Origin: Deltaproteobacteria bacterium
GTDB lineage: Bacteria; Desulfobacterota; RBG-13-43-22
Reading direction: 5' to 3'
Assembly (NCBI GenBank): GCA_016219225.1
Contig: JACRBX010000180.1
Span: 1 to 32,736 of the forward strand
Length of the DNA stretch: 32,736 nucleotides
Below the pieces are notes generated by a model. It was not told where the DNA came from and ran no database searches. It worked only from the letters and a program-made list of their open reading frames with translations. Position 1 is the first letter of the stretch. Each line of letters opens with the position of its first letter. The translations under genes were made by a program, and so were the position numbers. Below, one piece after another: positions 3,202 through 32,590 of this stretch.

Positions 3202-4344
3202 ATGAAGGTATTAGTTGTCGGCGGGACGGGCGGTATGGGACAGGGGGCTGCCCGGGACCTCATTAAACAGGAGCAGATCAAGCAGGTCATTCTCGGGGAT
3301 ATCAATATAGACCCCATCCGGGTACAGGACAAGTTGAAGGCCAGCGACAAGATATCCCTGAGTAAAATCGATGTCAACGATCACCAGGGCCTGGTCGGCG
3401 TCATCCGGGAATGCGATGTGGTCGTCAACTGCGCCGGACCGTTTTACAAGACGGCCGTGGCCGTAGCCCGGGCCGCCGTGGAGGCGAAAGTCAATTATAT
3501 CGATATCTGTGACGACTATGAGGCCACGGAAATTCTTTTTGCCTCCGATATCGACCAGGCGGCCAGGGAAGCGGGGATCACCGTTTTGACCGGTATGGGC
3601 TCCGATCCGGGAACCAACAATGTCCTGGTCAAGTGGTATGCCGATCATTTGGACCGGGTGAATGAGATCTCATTATTCTGGGTGGTCAGTATCGCCGAGC
3701 TGGCCGGTGCGGCCTGGGATCACAGCCTGCACATGACCATCGGGAAAATTCCCCAATATCTGGACGGCCAGTTGGTCCATGTGGAAGGTGGCACCGGTGT
3801 GGAGACGGCCCAATTCCTGGAACCCCTGGGCACCTGTCAGGTGCGCTATGTGGGCCACCCCCAGCCGCTGACCATCCCGCGCTACATCAAAGGGCTGAAA
3901 AAGGTGGAGATCAAGGGTGCGCTCATTCCCTTGTGGGTGGACGAGCTGATCAAAGAACAGAAAGAAACCGGCTTCCTCAGCAAAGAGCCGGTGGAGGTTC
4001 ACGGGACCAGGGTCACCCCCTATGATCTGACCCTGCGGCTCTGGGACACCATCCCCCAAAACAGGGATAACGGCCCGGAGGCCTCCGGTTTGAAAGTGAT
4101 CGTCAAAGGGGAAAGAGACGGGAAGCGGGTGACTTACACGGCCGATATCGTGGGCCGCATGAGGCCGGGAACCGGGCTTCCGGCTTCTATTGCCGCCCTG
4201 ATGATGGAGGCCGGCGATGTGACGGTCAAAGGGGTCGTGGCCCCGGAAGGCTGCATCGATCCGGACAAATTCCTGGCCGCCTTACTGAAAAGGGGCGCTA
4301 AAATACATCAAACGGAAACCATAGGCTCGCTGTTTGCACTCTAA
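3202..4344 (+). CDS. Saccharopine-dehydrogenase-like NAD(P)-dependent oxidoreductase
   Basis: A 380-residue cytoplasmic oxidoreductase. The N-terminus is a Rossmann fold with the dinucleotide loop GGTGGMGQGAA at residues 7-17. NCAGPF and the segment around YIDICDDYEA are typical of the saccharopine dehydrogenase/lysine-ketoglutarate reductase-like family. The C-terminal region ending with GDVTVKGVVAPEGCIDPDKF is also characteristic. Members of this family act on imino or amino acid intermediates, which fits the aminotransferase that follows. AAGGAGGG precedes the ATG, and the gene sits 13 bases after the VOC gene, so it is likely in the same transcript. The specific substrate cannot be read from the sequence. 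Confidence 0.85.
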   Translation: MKVLVVGGTGGMGQGAARDLIKQEQIKQVILGDINIDPIRVQDKLKASDKISLSKIDVNDHQGLVGVIRECDVVVNCAGPFYKTAVAVARAAVEAKVNYIDICDDYEATEILFASDIDQAAREAGITVLTGMGSDPGTNNVLVKWYADHLDRVNEISLFWVVSIAELAGAAWDHSLHMTIGKIPQYLDGQLVHVEGGTGVETAQFLEPLGTCQVRYVGHPQPLTIPRYIKGLKKVEIKGALIPLWVDELIKEQKETGFLSKEPVEVHGTRVTPYDLTLRLWDTIPQNRDNGPEASGLKVIVKGERDGKRVTYTADIVGRMRPGTGLPASIAALMMEAGDVTVKGVVAPEGCIDPDKFLAALLKRGAKIHQTETIGSLFAL

Positions 4345-4486
4345 GCCCTCATGCCCCAGGGAGCGACACGAAGCATGAAAATGCGAATATCGAATATCGA
4401 ATAATGAATAATGAATGTCGAAGTAAGGTTGTTTTTGAACCCGTAACTCGTAACTCGTAACCCGCAACTCTATTTTCGAACTAAAG
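4342..4486 (+). repeat. Modular intergenic element, copy A (box plus two heptad arrays)
   Basis: Fills the gap between the oxidoreductase and aminotransferase genes. In order: TAAGC (4342-4346, overlapping the stop codon), TCATGC with a weak GCCCC/GAGC pairing, the box ACGAAGCATGAAAATG (4368-4383), six 7-bp units of CGAATAT type (4384-4425), a linker, four 7-bp units of CGTAACT type (4442-4469), and TATTTTCGAACTAAAG (4471-4486). It ends 10 bases before the next ATG and appears to supply its AAAGGA ribosome binding site. The 44-base stretch 4384-4427 matches the reverse complement of 25675-25718 with three differences. Any reading frame through it gives only low-complexity peptide. Confidence 0.75.
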
Positions 4487-4496
4487 GAAACTATCT

Positions 4497-5753
4497 ATGA
4501 AAAGCGCTGAAAAACTGAATATTGCCAGAAGTCAGGAACTGTTTAAAGAGGCCTTGGCCTTGGTCCCCGGCGGGGTCCTGGGTGCCAGAAAACCGGCTGA
4601 TTTTATCGAAGGCGAATACCCCATCTTTGTGGAAAGCGGCCGGGGCGGCCGGGTGGTCGATGTGGACGGAAATGAGTATATCGATTTCCTCTGCGGCTAT
4701 GGGCCGATTATTCTGGGCTATCGGGAAGAAGAAGTGGATGAAGCGGTTATCCGCCAGATCAGAGACAAAGGCTTCTGTTTCACCCTGACCCAGCGGTATC
4801 AGAATGAGCTGGCCAAAAAACTGAGTCAACTGGTCCCCTGTTCGGAAATGAGTATTTTTTTAAAGACCGGTTCCGATGCCACCACGGCCAGCATCCGTAT
4901 TGCCAGGGCCTTTACCAACCGGGTCAAGGTGATGCGCTGCGGCTACCACGGCTGGCATGACTGGTGCGTGGAGATGAAAGGGGGCGTCCCTGAAAAATTC
5001 TATGAAGATGTCTTTGAATTCCGCTACAACCGTCTCGATCAACTCGAGGACCTGATGGCCCAACACGGCGATCAGACCGCGGCCATCATTATGACCCCTT
5101 TCGGACACCACCTGCACATGAAGATGGAAGAGCCCAAATCCGGGTTCCTGGAAGGGGTCCGGGAAATCGCCACCCGGTACGGCGCTATCCTGGTTTTTGA
5201 TGAAGTCCGGACCGGGTTCCGGTTGGCCCTGGGAGGGGCCCAGGCCTATTACGGGGTCACCCCCGACCTGGTGGTCCTGGGAAAGGGGATGGCCAACGGC
5301 TATGCCATCAGCGTGGTGACCGGGAAAAAAGAGGTGATGATGGCCTCGGCCCAGAAGCTGTTCATCTCGTCCACCTTCTTCCCCAATAGTGACGGCTATG
5401 TGGCCGCTCTGAAAACCATTGAGATCCTCGAACGGGACAAGGTCATTGATAAGATCTGGGAAAAGGGGGCCCGTTTCTGGAAAAAAATCCAGGAAATCCT
5501 CGACCGCTACGATGTGGGCGCCGAGTTAAGCGGGGTGGCTCCCATGTTTTTCATCACCTTCAGGCCCGATGCAGCCAAGACCCACAGGGCCAAACGGGAT
5601 GATTTTTATACCCAGCTTATTCGCAAAGGGATCTTTTTAACCCCCCACCATCATGGGTATATCTGTTACCGCCACACCGACCAGGATCTGGAACTGGCGG
5701 CCCAGGCCATAGAGGAGTCCCTGGCCTACGTAAAAGAGAAACACGGCCGATAG
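4497..5753 (+). CDS. Class III PLP aminotransferase, glutamate-1-semialdehyde-aminomutase-like
   Basis: A 418-residue fold-type I PLP enzyme of the class III family. The PLP lysine is K263 in VVLGKGMANGY, the cofactor aspartate lies in LVFDEVRTGFR, and GSDATTASIRIAR binds the PLP phosphate; all read like HemL-type proteins. The N-terminal PGGVLGARKP segment also resembles glutamate-1-semialdehyde aminomutases. However, it sits among catabolic genes rather than tetrapyrrole genes, so an amino-acid or beta-amino-acid transaminase is as likely as HemL. AAAGGA precedes the ATG. It is separated from the upstream genes only by the repeat element at 4342-4486, so it may share their transcript. Confidence 0.87.
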   Translation: MKSAEKLNIARSQELFKEALALVPGGVLGARKPADFIEGEYPIFVESGRGGRVVDVDGNEYIDFLCGYGPIILGYREEEVDEAVIRQIRDKGFCFTLTQRYQNELAKKLSQLVPCSEMSIFLKTGSDATTASIRIARAFTNRVKVMRCGYHGWHDWCVEMKGGVPEKFYEDVFEFRYNRLDQLEDLMAQHGDQTAAIIMTPFGHHLHMKMEEPKSGFLEGVREIATRYGAILVFDEVRTGFRLALGGAQAYYGVTPDLVVLGKGMANGYAISVVTGKKEVMMASAQKLFISSTFFPNSDGYVAALKTIEILERDKVIDKIWEKGARFWKKIQEILDRYDVGAELSGVAPMFFITFRPDAAKTHRAKRDDFYTQLIRKGIFLTPHHHGYICYRHTDQDLELAAQAIEESLAYVKEKHGR

Positions 5754-11179: not shown

Positions 11180-11194
11180 ACCGATTTTCCGGTT

Positions 11195-11257
11195 TCGGAT
11201 TTTGGAATTCGGATTTTGGAATTTAAAAACCCCCATTTCATAGGGGCGTTGTGGGGG
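11195..11257. repeat. Duplicated 14-mer (four 7-bp units) plus G/C-run hairpin
   Basis: TCGGATTTTGGAAT occurs twice head to tail (11195-11208 and 11209-11222), i.e. four 7-bp units. After it, CCCCCA (11230-11235) can pair with TGGGGG (11252-11257). The array belongs to the same period-7 class as the other intergenic arrays but lacks the conserved box. The hairpin may end the superoxide dismutase transcript or form a leader for the next gene; there is no T-run. Confidence 0.55.
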
Positions 11258-16792: not shown

Positions 16793-16940
16793 TAAGCAGT
16801 CATGCTGGCCTCAGCCAGCACCACGAAGCATGAAAAAGGATTCAAGGGGTCCAGGGGCCAAGGGTTCAAGTGAAAGGCGTGGAATTTAAAACCCTGGAAT
16901 CCTGGAATCCTGGAATCCTATTTTTTAGAACTAACTATTT
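16793..16940 (+). repeat. Modular intergenic element, copy B (octad arrays)
   Basis: Same order as copy A. TAAGC (16793-16797) and CATGC lead into a perfect 7-bp hairpin TGCTGGC-CTCA-GCCAGCA (16803-16820). The box ACGAAGCATGAAAA follows (16823-16836), then four 8-bp units of TCAAGGGG type (16842-16873), a linker, three exact 8-bp units CCTGGAAT (16893-16916) and the end module TATTTTTTAGAACTAACTAT (from 16919). The end module runs to within four bases of the ATG at 16944 and resembles the end of copy A up to the start codon. The preceding 16713-16792 is AT-rich with no gene. Confidence 0.72.
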
Positions 16941-20933: not shown

Positions 20934-21699
20934 GCTTAAGGGAGTCAGCAAGGTTTTCGGGGGTTTGGCCGCCTTAAACGAGGTTTCCTTCGCTTTGGAG
21001 AAAGGGGAGATCCTGGGATTGATCGGTCCAAACGGGGCTGGAAAAACCACCCTGTTTAATGTGGTCACCTCTTTTCTCTATCCCACCTCCGGAGAAATAT
21101 TTTTTGCCGGAGAAAAGGTCAGCGGCCTGAAGTCCCATAAGATCACCCAGAGGGGCATCAGCCGGACCTTTCAAAACATACGGCTCTTCGATCAAATGTC
21201 GGTGGAGGAAAATGTTATGGTCGGCCGACATTGCCGAAGCCGGGCCGGCGTCTTAAGGGGTGTCCTGCGCACCCAGGGCCAGAAAAAGGAAGAAGAACAG
21301 ATCCGGGAAAAGACCGACAGTCTGCTCAAACTGGTTGGATTGACCGGCTATAATCACCTTCCGGCTATGAGTCTGCCTTACGGCCTGCAGCGGCGGGTGG
21401 AGATCGCCCGGGCTCTGGCCAGCGAACCGAAGCTGATTTTATTGGATGAACCGGTTGCCGGGATGAATGATCTGGAAACCGAGGAGATGGCCGGGTTGAT
21501 TAAAAAAATACTCGGCCTCGGCATAACAGTCCTGTTGATTGAACACGATATGTCCATGGTTATGACCGTTTGCGACCGGCTGGTGGTTTTAAATTTCGGA
21601 CAAAAGATTGCCGAGGGGACCCCTCAGGAGATCCAGCATAACCCGGAAGTCATTGAAGCCTACCTGGGCCGGGAAGAAGAAAACGAGATCGGAGTATAG
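20923..21699 (+). CDS. livG: LIV-type ABC transporter ATPase (LivG)
   Basis: A 258-residue ATPase. Walker [10 protein letters not shown], the LivG-type [21 protein letters not shown], signature [15 protein letters not shown] in place of LSGGQ, Walker [14 protein letters not shown] and the H-loop in LIEHDM are all present. The LPYG(Q) signature and PVAGMN are specific to LivG. It energises the LivHM channel together with LivF. The ATG lies inside the end of the livM frame. Confidence 0.93.
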
Positions 21700-21700
21700 G

Positions 21701-21763
21701 GTTCGGAGTTCGGAGTAAATCATTTTCATGCTTCATGGTGCCCCAGAGGGGCCCGAGGGTTTA
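21701..21763 (-). repeat. Modular intergenic element, copy C (short, reverse orientation)
   Basis: Read on the minus strand: lead-in CTAAACCCTCGGG, a 5-bp hairpin GCCCC-TCT-GGGGC (21752-21740), the box ATGAAGCATGAAAATG (21736-21721, one base from the consensus), then two 7-bp units (GTTCGGA on the plus strand, 21701-21714). The terminal TATTTTCG module is missing. It lies inside the LIV operon, between the livG stop and the AAGAGG ribosome binding site of livF. Confidence 0.65.
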
Positions 21764-25498: not shown

Positions 25499-25513
25499 TG
25501 GCACCCCTTTTGC
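25499..25513 (+). promoter_or_regulatory. Sigma54-type (-24/-12) promoter
   Basis: TGGCAC (25499-25504) and TTGC (25510-25513) are spaced so that the GG and GC pairs are separated by exactly 10 bases, matching the sigma54 consensus TGGCAC-N5-TTGC. It points right, toward the response regulator at 25842 and the formate dehydrogenase genes, and lies 270 bases from the divergent HK/NtrC operon. The imperfect dyad TCCT...AGGA just upstream (about 25480-25495) might bind protein but is close for an enhancer. Confidence 0.6.
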
Positions 25514-25614
25514 TTTAGTACGAAAATAACGTTCAGGGATCGGGGGTCAGGGATCGGGGGTCGGCGAAAGACATTTTCATTCTTCGTAGTGCCCGACCCG
25601 GGCATGAGCGCTTA
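25513..25614 (-). repeat. Modular intergenic element, copy D
   Basis: Read on the minus strand: TAAGCGCTCATGC (25614-25602), the 6-bp hairpin TGCCCG-GGT-CGGGCA (25604-25590), the box ACGAAGAATGAAAATG (25587-25572), a 7-bp array whose plus-strand units are TCAGGGA/TCGGGGG (25533-25567, five units), and the end module TATTTTCGTACTAAAG (25528-25513). The end module matches copy A at 15 of 16 positions. Its last bases overlap the -12 box of the sigma54-type promoter on the other strand. Confidence 0.75.
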
Positions 25615-25625
25615 ACACAAAGATA

Positions 25626-25754
25626 CGAATCTTGAATTTCGAACATCGAATTTCGAATTATGAAGTTTTTTCAGCTTACTTCGACATTCAGTATTCGTTA
25701 TTCGATATTCGACATTCGGTTTTTCATTCGTCGTTGCCCCCCCTTGCCCTCTCA
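25626..25754 (-). repeat. Modular intergenic element, copy F (two heptad arrays)
   Basis: Immediately beyond copy D. On the minus strand: a degenerate GC-rich lead-in with TGAGAGGGCAAGGGG, box ACGACGAATGAAAA (25734-25721), a 7-bp array (25718-25675) matching copy A's first array and its flank at 41 of 44 bases, a linker, and a second array of six CGAATTT-type units (25667-25626, read on the plus strand). No clear TATTTTCG end is seen. An in-frame extension of the next gene through this repeat is spurious. Confidence 0.7.
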
Positions 25755-25841
25755 TCGAGGAGGATGGTGAGGAAAGGGACCATGAGGGTTTGGTTCGAAA
25801 ATGCAGTTTTTAAATTTCAAGATTCAATAAAAGGTGAGACC

Positions 25842-26516: not shown

Positions 26517-26577
26517 GATACTCAACCGGGCTTTAGGCAAAAGCCGAAAGGCGATTTTGATGAAACCGTAAAAAAGC

Positions 26578-26657
26578 CGTCATTCCCGCGCAGGCGGGAA
26601 TCCAGGCCAATCGAGATCAATTAAAAACACTGGATTCCGGCTTTCGCCGGAATGACG
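26578..26657. repeat. Composite inverted repeat (two dRS3-like hairpins), copy 1
   Basis: The ends CGTCATTCC (26578-26586) and GGAATGACG (26649-26657) enclose two hairpins: ATTCCCGC-GCAG-GCGGGAAT (26582-26601) and ATTCCGGC-TTTC-GCCGGAAT (26634-26653). Outer CGTAAAAAA (26567-26575) and TTTTTTACG (26676-26684) extend the symmetry. The ATTCCC-N8-GGGAAT core is the form called dRS3 in Neisseria and is common in proteobacterial intergenic DNA. It may act as a bidirectional terminator or REP-like element between the regulator and NuoE-like genes. Confidence 0.7.
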
Positions 26658-26703
26658 TAATGCGGGTTTCAGCGATTTTTTACGATTCAAACTATTTTAA
26701 TAG

Positions 26704-27296: not shown

Positions 27297-27359
27297 TCGG
27301 GGGTCGGGGATCGGGGATCGGGGATCAGGGATCAGGAGATTAGGGGTCGGGGGTCGGGA
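27297..27359. repeat. Solo array of nine 7-bp units
   Basis: Tandem TCGGGGA-type heptads, with variants TCGGGGG, TCAGGGA and ATTAGGG, fill the gap between the NuoE-like and NuoF-like genes. The array starts three bases after the upstream stop. TACGAAAATA (27365-27374) follows; its reverse complement is the TATTTTCG-type end seen in copies A and D. The hairpin and box modules are absent. Confidence 0.75.
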
Positions 27360-27402
27360 TTTGATACGAAAATAAAGTGTCGAGGCATTAAATGGGAAAG
27401 AT

Positions 27403-32198: not shown

Positions 32199-32270
32199 TG
32201 AGTTGTATCCAACCATAAAATGTGCTACATAATACTACAGCGAATTTTTTTACTAATGCACTCCGTTATC

Positions 32271-32367
32271 CGTCATTCCGGCATGTTTTAAGCCGGAATC
32301 CAGGGTCTTTGATTTTCTTATTTTCTTGAAAAAACTGGATTCCCGATAAAGACGTTCGGGAATGACG
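32271..32367. repeat. Composite inverted repeat, copy 2
   Basis: It has the same ends as copy 1 (CGTCATTCC 32271-32279; GGAATGACG 32359-32367). The internal hairpins are ATTCCGGC/GCCGGAAT (32275-32282 and 32292-32299) and ATTCCCGA/TCGGGAAT (32339-32346 and 32356-32363). As in copy 1, the left hairpin is followed by CCAG and the right is preceded by CTGG. It lies 72 bases past the formate dehydrogenase stop. The remainder of 32199-32500 shows no supported gene. Confidence 0.68.
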
Positions 32368-32500
32368 AAAAAAGTGGCGTTGTAGCGATAAGTTGCTATG
32401 TCTCTTCCGGGGTAACTCCCGGACGAGGCGTAGATTCTTCCAAAGTACACCTGAGGATTTATCTCTAACATTTTTAATAAGCGAGCTTGTTATGATGCCA

Positions 32501-32590
32501 GGAATCCAGAATTCAGAATAATGGAATATCTTTTATTGGGGTTGTTACTCATTCTGAATTCTGAATTCTGACTCCTGAATTCTGAATTCC
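32501..32590. repeat. Opposed 7-bp arrays forming an imperfect palindrome
   Basis: Left units of AGAATTC/AGAATAA type (32501-32527) are followed after about 23 bases by six ATTCTGA-type units (32551-32590). The two arrays are roughly reverse complements: 32501-32515 pairs with 32576-32590 at 14 of 15 positions. They could therefore extrude as a hairpin. Same period-7 class as the other arrays, without the conserved box. Confidence 0.6.

Follow-up and report, generated by a model that had tools for sequence, protein, structure and literature searches.

The window, meaning the whole 32,736-nucleotide stretch analysed here (contig JACRBX010000180.1 of the Deltaproteobacteria bacterium assembly GCA_016219225.1), carries a short modular repeat in the gaps between its genes. 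An initial annotation, made from the letters alone, had claimed five intergenic copies, and all five places were confirmed in the sequence. Copy 1 (+) opens with a TAAG core at 4342-4345, the TAA of which doubles as the stop codon of the upstream open reading frame (3202-4344). Its left end (4346-4383) comprises CCCTCATG, a hairpin (P1), a link and an exact box, ACGAAGCATGAAAATG, at 4368-4383, and its head reads TAAGCCCTCATGCCC at 4342-4356 (+). The interior (4384-4470) holds two period-7 arrays, with units CGAATAT (4384-4422) and AACTCGT (4438-4470), and is closed by an exact right end, or tail, TATTTTCGAACTAAAG (4471-4486); the ATG of the next gene follows 11 nt further on, at 4497.

Copy 2 (16793-16940, +) has all modules: a left end (16793-16838) with P1 arms TGCTGGC/GCCAGCA and a box bearing one mismatch (16823-16838), an interior of type F (16839-16918) and a degenerate right end, TATTTTTTAGAACTAAC (16919-16935; tail TATTTTTTAGAACTAA). 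The remaining copies lie on the minus strand. Copy 3 (21683-21763), between genes labelled LivG-like and LivF-like from their best NCBIfam matches, has the head TAAACCCTCGGGCCCC (21749-21763), a box with one mismatch (21721-21736), an array of TCCGAAC units and a truncated tail, shortened to GTTTTC. Copy 4 (25513-25614) has all modules—head at 25600-25614, box at 25572-25587, array at 25533-25562, tail at 25513-25528—with one mismatch each in box and tail. The degraded copy 5 (25615-25803) stands head-to-tail with copy 4; its box has four mismatches, its interior contains complementary array arms (25680-25718 and 25626-25659), and ahead of it stands a tail-like CATTTTCGAACCAAAC (25788-25803). 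Copies 1, 2 and 4 had been said to end in the same module; the tails of copies 1 and 4 are good, whereas that of copy 2 is weak. A sixth remnant (27297-27374, minus strand) has no box and places a tail-like TATTTTCGTATCAAAT (27359-27374) beside a period-7 array.

Short period-7 or period-14 arrays without the frame that surrounds these interiors also occur in the window, at 32551-32589 and 11194-11223, as do repeats of the form CGTCATTCCGGC...GCCGGAATCCAG, at 26556-26670 (+) and about 32270-32370 (+). Repeats of this latter type were seen, in addition, inside frame elements of the source genome and of genomes G002 and G139.

Abundance and architecture in the source genome

Across the whole 5.93-Mb genome, the box ACGAAGCATGAAAATG gave 356 matches at up to two mismatches and the reversed pattern one, which excludes chance as the source of the box and bears out the earlier prediction of hundreds of copies per genome. 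Modules were catalogued around 154 boxes in 1.41 Mb of the source genome, window included; this set consists mostly of contigs with known matches, so that densities within it are biased upward and only the 356-box count is genome-wide. A head was present upstream (within 250 nt) of 99 of the 154 boxes, at 15-45 nt in 93, and a same-strand tail lay downstream of 71, against one opposite-strand tail on each side. Module order and strand are therefore fixed. The order agrees with the initial annotation, and the outcome which that annotation had named as refuting, modules scattered independently of one another, did not occur. Complete copies measure 72-292 bp, too short for a transposase gene, and no recurrent flanking gene family of the transposase kind was found beside copies in the 1.41 Mb.

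Copies are mainly intergenic (13 of 96 fall inside open reading frames, as called by a crude ORF caller) and often end 8-14 nt ahead of a start codon. Upstream genes take their stop codon from the copy's left TAA in three cases and from a right-end TAG in seven; stop codons and start regions of host operons can fall within inserted DNA. Orientation relative to co-directional flanking genes is neutral, with 29 copies in the same and 32 in the opposite direction. A weak C-rich strand bias (91 versus 56, p=0.005; 64 versus 43, p=0.053, where skew exceeds 0.02), in counts where neighbouring copies are not independent, could fit a replication-strand-dependent mechanism. Most copies are probably neutral passengers in intergenic gaps. 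One frame element (L267, G000:C20) adjoins rplC, named by eye from its translation, in a ribosomal protein region.

Within the frame, the period is constant and the sequence is not, since 7 is the best lag in 67 of 83 distinct interiors (lag-7 match 0.473, versus 0.263 ± 0.006 in shuffled sequence), yet 97 different cyclic heptamers act as the repeat unit. The initial annotation had described array sequence as differing completely between copies; sequences do vary, but beside the common period there are recurring types, namely TCCGAAC, CCCTGAT, CTTGAAA, CGAATAT with AACTCGT or CCGAAAT, GGCTATA, and the type F of copy 2. Subfamilies of copies have whole interiors in common, and some interiors hold inserted REP/MITE-like repeats. 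Period-7 arrays are weakly phase-locked to the right end, and many otherwise unexplained arrays of this period in the source genome are explained as cargo of the element. At L184:14019-14188, two complementary period-7 arrays stand alone, without a frame, and G002 has them at the same site. Six G002 loci (L219, L220, L225, L227, L235 and L236) carry a recurrent interior, ACAGGCGCCCTCGCCTGT...ACAGCCGGGGGCGGCTGTGCTAC, which is an unrelated inverted repeat within the frame.

Hairpins, boundaries and target site

The source-genome consensus reads TAA(A/G)-CCCTCATG-(P1 hairpin)-CACC-ACGAAGC-ATGAAAATG-(interior)-TATTTTCGAACTAAA. P1 is mostly TGCCC/GGGCA, with variants TGCTGGC/GCCAGCA, TGTCCC/GGGACA and TGACCC/GGGTCA. 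Its inner pairs covary when compared with column shuffles (z of 2.6, 1.9, 4.9 and 3.7 for four successive pairs), and single pairs are disrupted in about 16-27% of copies according to anchored pair counts; these were used in place of an RNAalifold consensus fold of the copies, which returned no pairs because hairpin length varies. A second stem, P2, is formed by an arm, ATGAAAAT, complementary to the right-end ATTTTC(AT), with the interior enclosed between them. Within the source genome P2 is suggested but unproved, since it appears in the minimum free energy (MFE) folds of only 35 of 86 copies; across lineages its arms are supported, with a compensatory pair in G073 (GAAAAC with GTTTTC). Terminal inverted repeats are absent, as a comparison of the left CCCTCATG/CGGTCATG with the reverse complement of the right end, TTTAGTTCG/TTTATATG, makes plain.

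Neighbouring units often abut. All nine resolved neighbouring pairs have the TAA in common at offset 0 and none of the nine has similar interiors, as local duplication would have produced. A tail stands directly upstream of 39 of 102 complete units. The left motif of the source genome, TATTAAR, is looser than the CTAA found in G139, and TAT occurs at 12 of 39 source-genome joints versus seven of 86 right ends.

Boundaries are sharp in G139, where copies are younger and a 21-base pattern finds 311 of them (control, 0). CTAA lies immediately 5' of the head in 24 of 35 single copies, against a background of 0.14%. Of 30 right ends, 22 match CATATAAA exactly and 29 end in A; in joined copies the right-end TAAA replaces CTAA in 13 of 14, the joint reading TAAA followed by C. 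Direct repeats in the flanks of 11 single copies span 0 nt in seven and 1 nt in four, meaning that there is no target duplication. From these counts CTAA is most probably part of the target, the element spans CNN(C/T)CATG to TAAA, and the joints are right-end/left-end junctions. A reading of the TAA as a target duplication was ruled out, because right ends keep their last A where copies join. Several uncultured Desulfobacterota contain this repeat in hundreds of copies, and its boundaries are now set.

Orthologous sites and other hosts

Orthologous sites in related genomes (G001-G004) proved to be without the copy or to hold a different one. Between their LivG- and LivF-like genes, G003 and G004 are without the roughly 93 bp that carry window copy 3, the L040 copy of the source genome is absent from the orthologous site in G002, and six further orthologous gaps of G001 contain different sequence. 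At another G002 site, two extra units are stacked on an array-plus-tail that is also present in the source genome. Being made between species, these comparisons record presence or absence rather than single insertion events. Over 76 bases (window about 16819-16894; query 3820-3895), taking in the box side and most of the interior, copy 2 has a 99% identical counterpart in G004:C232, from another genus (G004 being the MAG NC_groundwater_1644, genome of L086), whereas orthologous genes of the source genome and the G004 genus are about 75-83% identical.

A survey across the phylum found the tight frame pattern in 25 of 297 genomes, and its spread is patchy: 56 matches in G139 against none in five other genomes of the same family, and 22 in G192 against at most one in any other listed genome of that family. 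The head and box of G008 resemble those of the source-genome element. The two ends are conserved across several families related to sulfate reducers, although sister genera may have no copy. Five other lineages carry the frame with boxes, tails and interiors of their own: G070/G175 (MAG CROMO_BS_46_3, genome of L062), G073 (a MAG labelled Desulfomonile tiedjei, genome of L065), G029, G139 and G192. The interiors seen in G139, G192 and G073 are not heptad arrays, while the frame is the same.

No match to the exact 21-base frame pattern was found in IMG/VR viral contigs, nor did one copy searched against plasmids and one searched against phages return any. No Rfam family matches the element; a sub-threshold WsnRNA46 match fell on the repeat at 26556-26670. 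No published description of the frame was found in the open-licence literature.

Interpretation and alternatives

We conclude that the element is new, widespread and modular, and PATE-like or BOX-like in kind. The best explanation, to which we give a probability of about 0.58, is one family of small non-autonomous elements, the ends of which are moved in trans by a Y1 (HUH) transposase and the interior of which is exchangeable. The initial annotation had offered a non-autonomous mobile element as one of three options, and site differences, patchy spread, common interiors, a target motif and the lack of target duplication all support it. Together with the target motif, the lack of duplication and the right-end/left-end junctions, subterminal hairpins (P1 and the suggested P2) without terminal inverted repeats form the signature of trans-mobilised Y1 elements of the PATE, IS200/IS605 and REP type, and point to single-strand chemistry. 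A copy would consist of a left end (CCNTCATG, P1, CACCACGAAGC), an arm ATGAAAAY, a free interior, an arm RTTTTC and a right end closing in TAAA. A trans-acting Y1 enzyme resembling IS200/IS605 TnpA or RAYT would recognise P1 and the interior-enclosing P2 in single-stranded form. On the left it would cut 3' of a target of the YTAA type, on the right after TAAA, and it would join the DNA without duplicating the target. The interior would be unconstrained because such an enzyme would need the ends only, and could collect period-7 arrays and other repeats. Joining of one copy's right end to another's left end would then give head-to-tail stacks. Circles of IS608 contain a right-end/left-end junction, the same in kind as the joints of the element. 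Counting against this explanation are the TAT excess at source-genome joints, which simple right-end insertion does not predict, the looser left motif there, a P2 stem predicted in a minority of folds, a strand bias that weakens as the skew threshold rises, and the finding that neither a frame-flanked Y1 gene (five genomes) nor a recurrent transposase gene beside copies (1.41 Mb) turned up.

PATEs, defined in Haloquadratum walsbyi and related to IS605-type elements, are likewise short, transposase-free and without terminal inverted repeats; they too are numerous, end in a conserved oligonucleotide, cause no target duplication, diverge in their interiors and have other repeats inserted in them (PMC3119063). 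PATEs also have palindromes near their ends, to which P1 clearly corresponds and P2 may correspond. The element differs from them in its bacterial phylum, in ends matched here to no IS200/IS605, in the period-7 interiors of the source genome and in end-to-end joining; it works like a PATE and is not filed as a member because no Y1 locus in the five genomes searched is framed by its ends. With IS200/IS605 elements such as IS608 it has in common that it inserts just 3' of a fixed short motif without duplication, as well as end hairpins (PMC7290912), but it has no tnpA or tnpB, its right hairpin has arms of only 6-8 bp around an arbitrary interior, and a linked enzyme was not found. Like REP/BIME sequences with their RAYT (PMC8266576), it exists in hundreds of intergenic copies with a hairpin and a presumed trans-acting Y1, in a genome with RAYT-like genes; unlike them it has no GTAG tag—its tag, YTAA, lies at least five bases away from the hairpin—and its units, about 72-292 bp long with ends that differ from each other, stack on the same strand, where REP/BIME forms inverted pairs, and none stands beside the Y1 genes of the five genomes searched. 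Taken literally, the earlier exclusion of REP, CRISPR and IS is right, but the element behaves like the PATE and REP relatives of IS200/IS605.

BOX of Streptococcus pneumoniae (PMC3049150) offers a parallel in its constant end modules, variable middle repeats, intergenic position, mobility and length, mostly below 300 bp; however, BOX has terminal inverted repeats, target duplications and a single middle repeat, whereas the element has neither of the first two and its middle is exchangeable. The TAACTGA arrays of Beggiatoaceae (PMC4679880) also have period 7, are intergenic and often lie right before start codons, but use one fixed heptamer and have no flanking modules described, in contrast to the many heptamers in a fixed frame reported here.

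Exact head-to-tail joints between unlike interiors resemble cassette arrays, source-genome joints mix left-type and right-type cores, and tyrosine recombinases are present, below the integron cut-off, all of which would suit integron-like site-specific recombination of circles. We nevertheless regard this route, or trans action by an IS110-like or DDE enzyme, as unlikely: no IntI exceeds the cut-off (TIGR02249, best 83 bits, cut-off 265), copies are dispersed rather than clustered, and the absence of both terminal inverted repeats and target duplication argues against a DDE enzyme. Because right ends keep their last A at joints, no core is common to both ends there. The absence of mobility altogether, with tandem-repeat expansion and intergenic decay producing ends alike by chance or local duplication, might be read from the many truncated copies and remnants; it is scarcely credible and already contradicted by the same ends recurring on hundreds of scattered copies, by the unlike interiors of neighbouring units, by a frame kept across several families and by the G139 boundaries.

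The two other options of the initial annotation fared poorly. P1 covariation, the compensatory change in P2 and the many copies between stop and start codons of neighbouring genes are what a structured RNA with a cellular role in mRNA processing, stability or termination might display, but gene orientation is random and the head stem is broken in roughly one copy in four or five, which disfavours RNA action on neighbouring genes; positions are also unconserved between species, most genomes of the phylum have no copy and Rfam offers no family, and we consider such a role very unlikely. For Beggiatoaceae, sites for regulators have been proposed to lie in heptamer arrays upstream of start codons (PMC4679880), and the near-universal period 7 of the source genome, with its phase-locking, might similarly be functional in protein-binding arrays that regulate genes or organise the chromosome. 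The 97 heptamers used as repeat unit speak against a sequence-specific array of this kind, as do period-7 arrays without the frame and frames without heptad arrays, making it highly improbable.

Returning to the trans-mobilised family, a broader version is a phylum-wide ‘empty-frame’ transposon that keeps its ends, exchanges its interiors and carries, amplifies and stacks unrelated small repeats (period-7 arrays in the source genome, REP/MITE-like sequences in others), the novelty residing in the identity of a single-strand enzyme or in the way ends are recognised; we hold this version to be doubtful. A search for an autonomous copy, enclosing a gene within its ends, was negative: the three long spans contain ordinary genes such as EF-Tu/rplC. 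Four Y1 genes were found in the source genome, G000 (one RAYT-like), and 28 matches in G002, G004, G139 and G192 (one gene counted twice), and none of the Y1 loci of these five genomes is framed by element ends. With its 311 copies and sharp junctions, G139 provides a clear test case for interior swapping and stacking without a transposase. At L131:868-1863 lies a RAYT-like REP-associated tyrosine transposase (E 4e-18, below the model cut-off), with frame elements absent nearby; its product is a possible candidate for the trans-acting enzyme.
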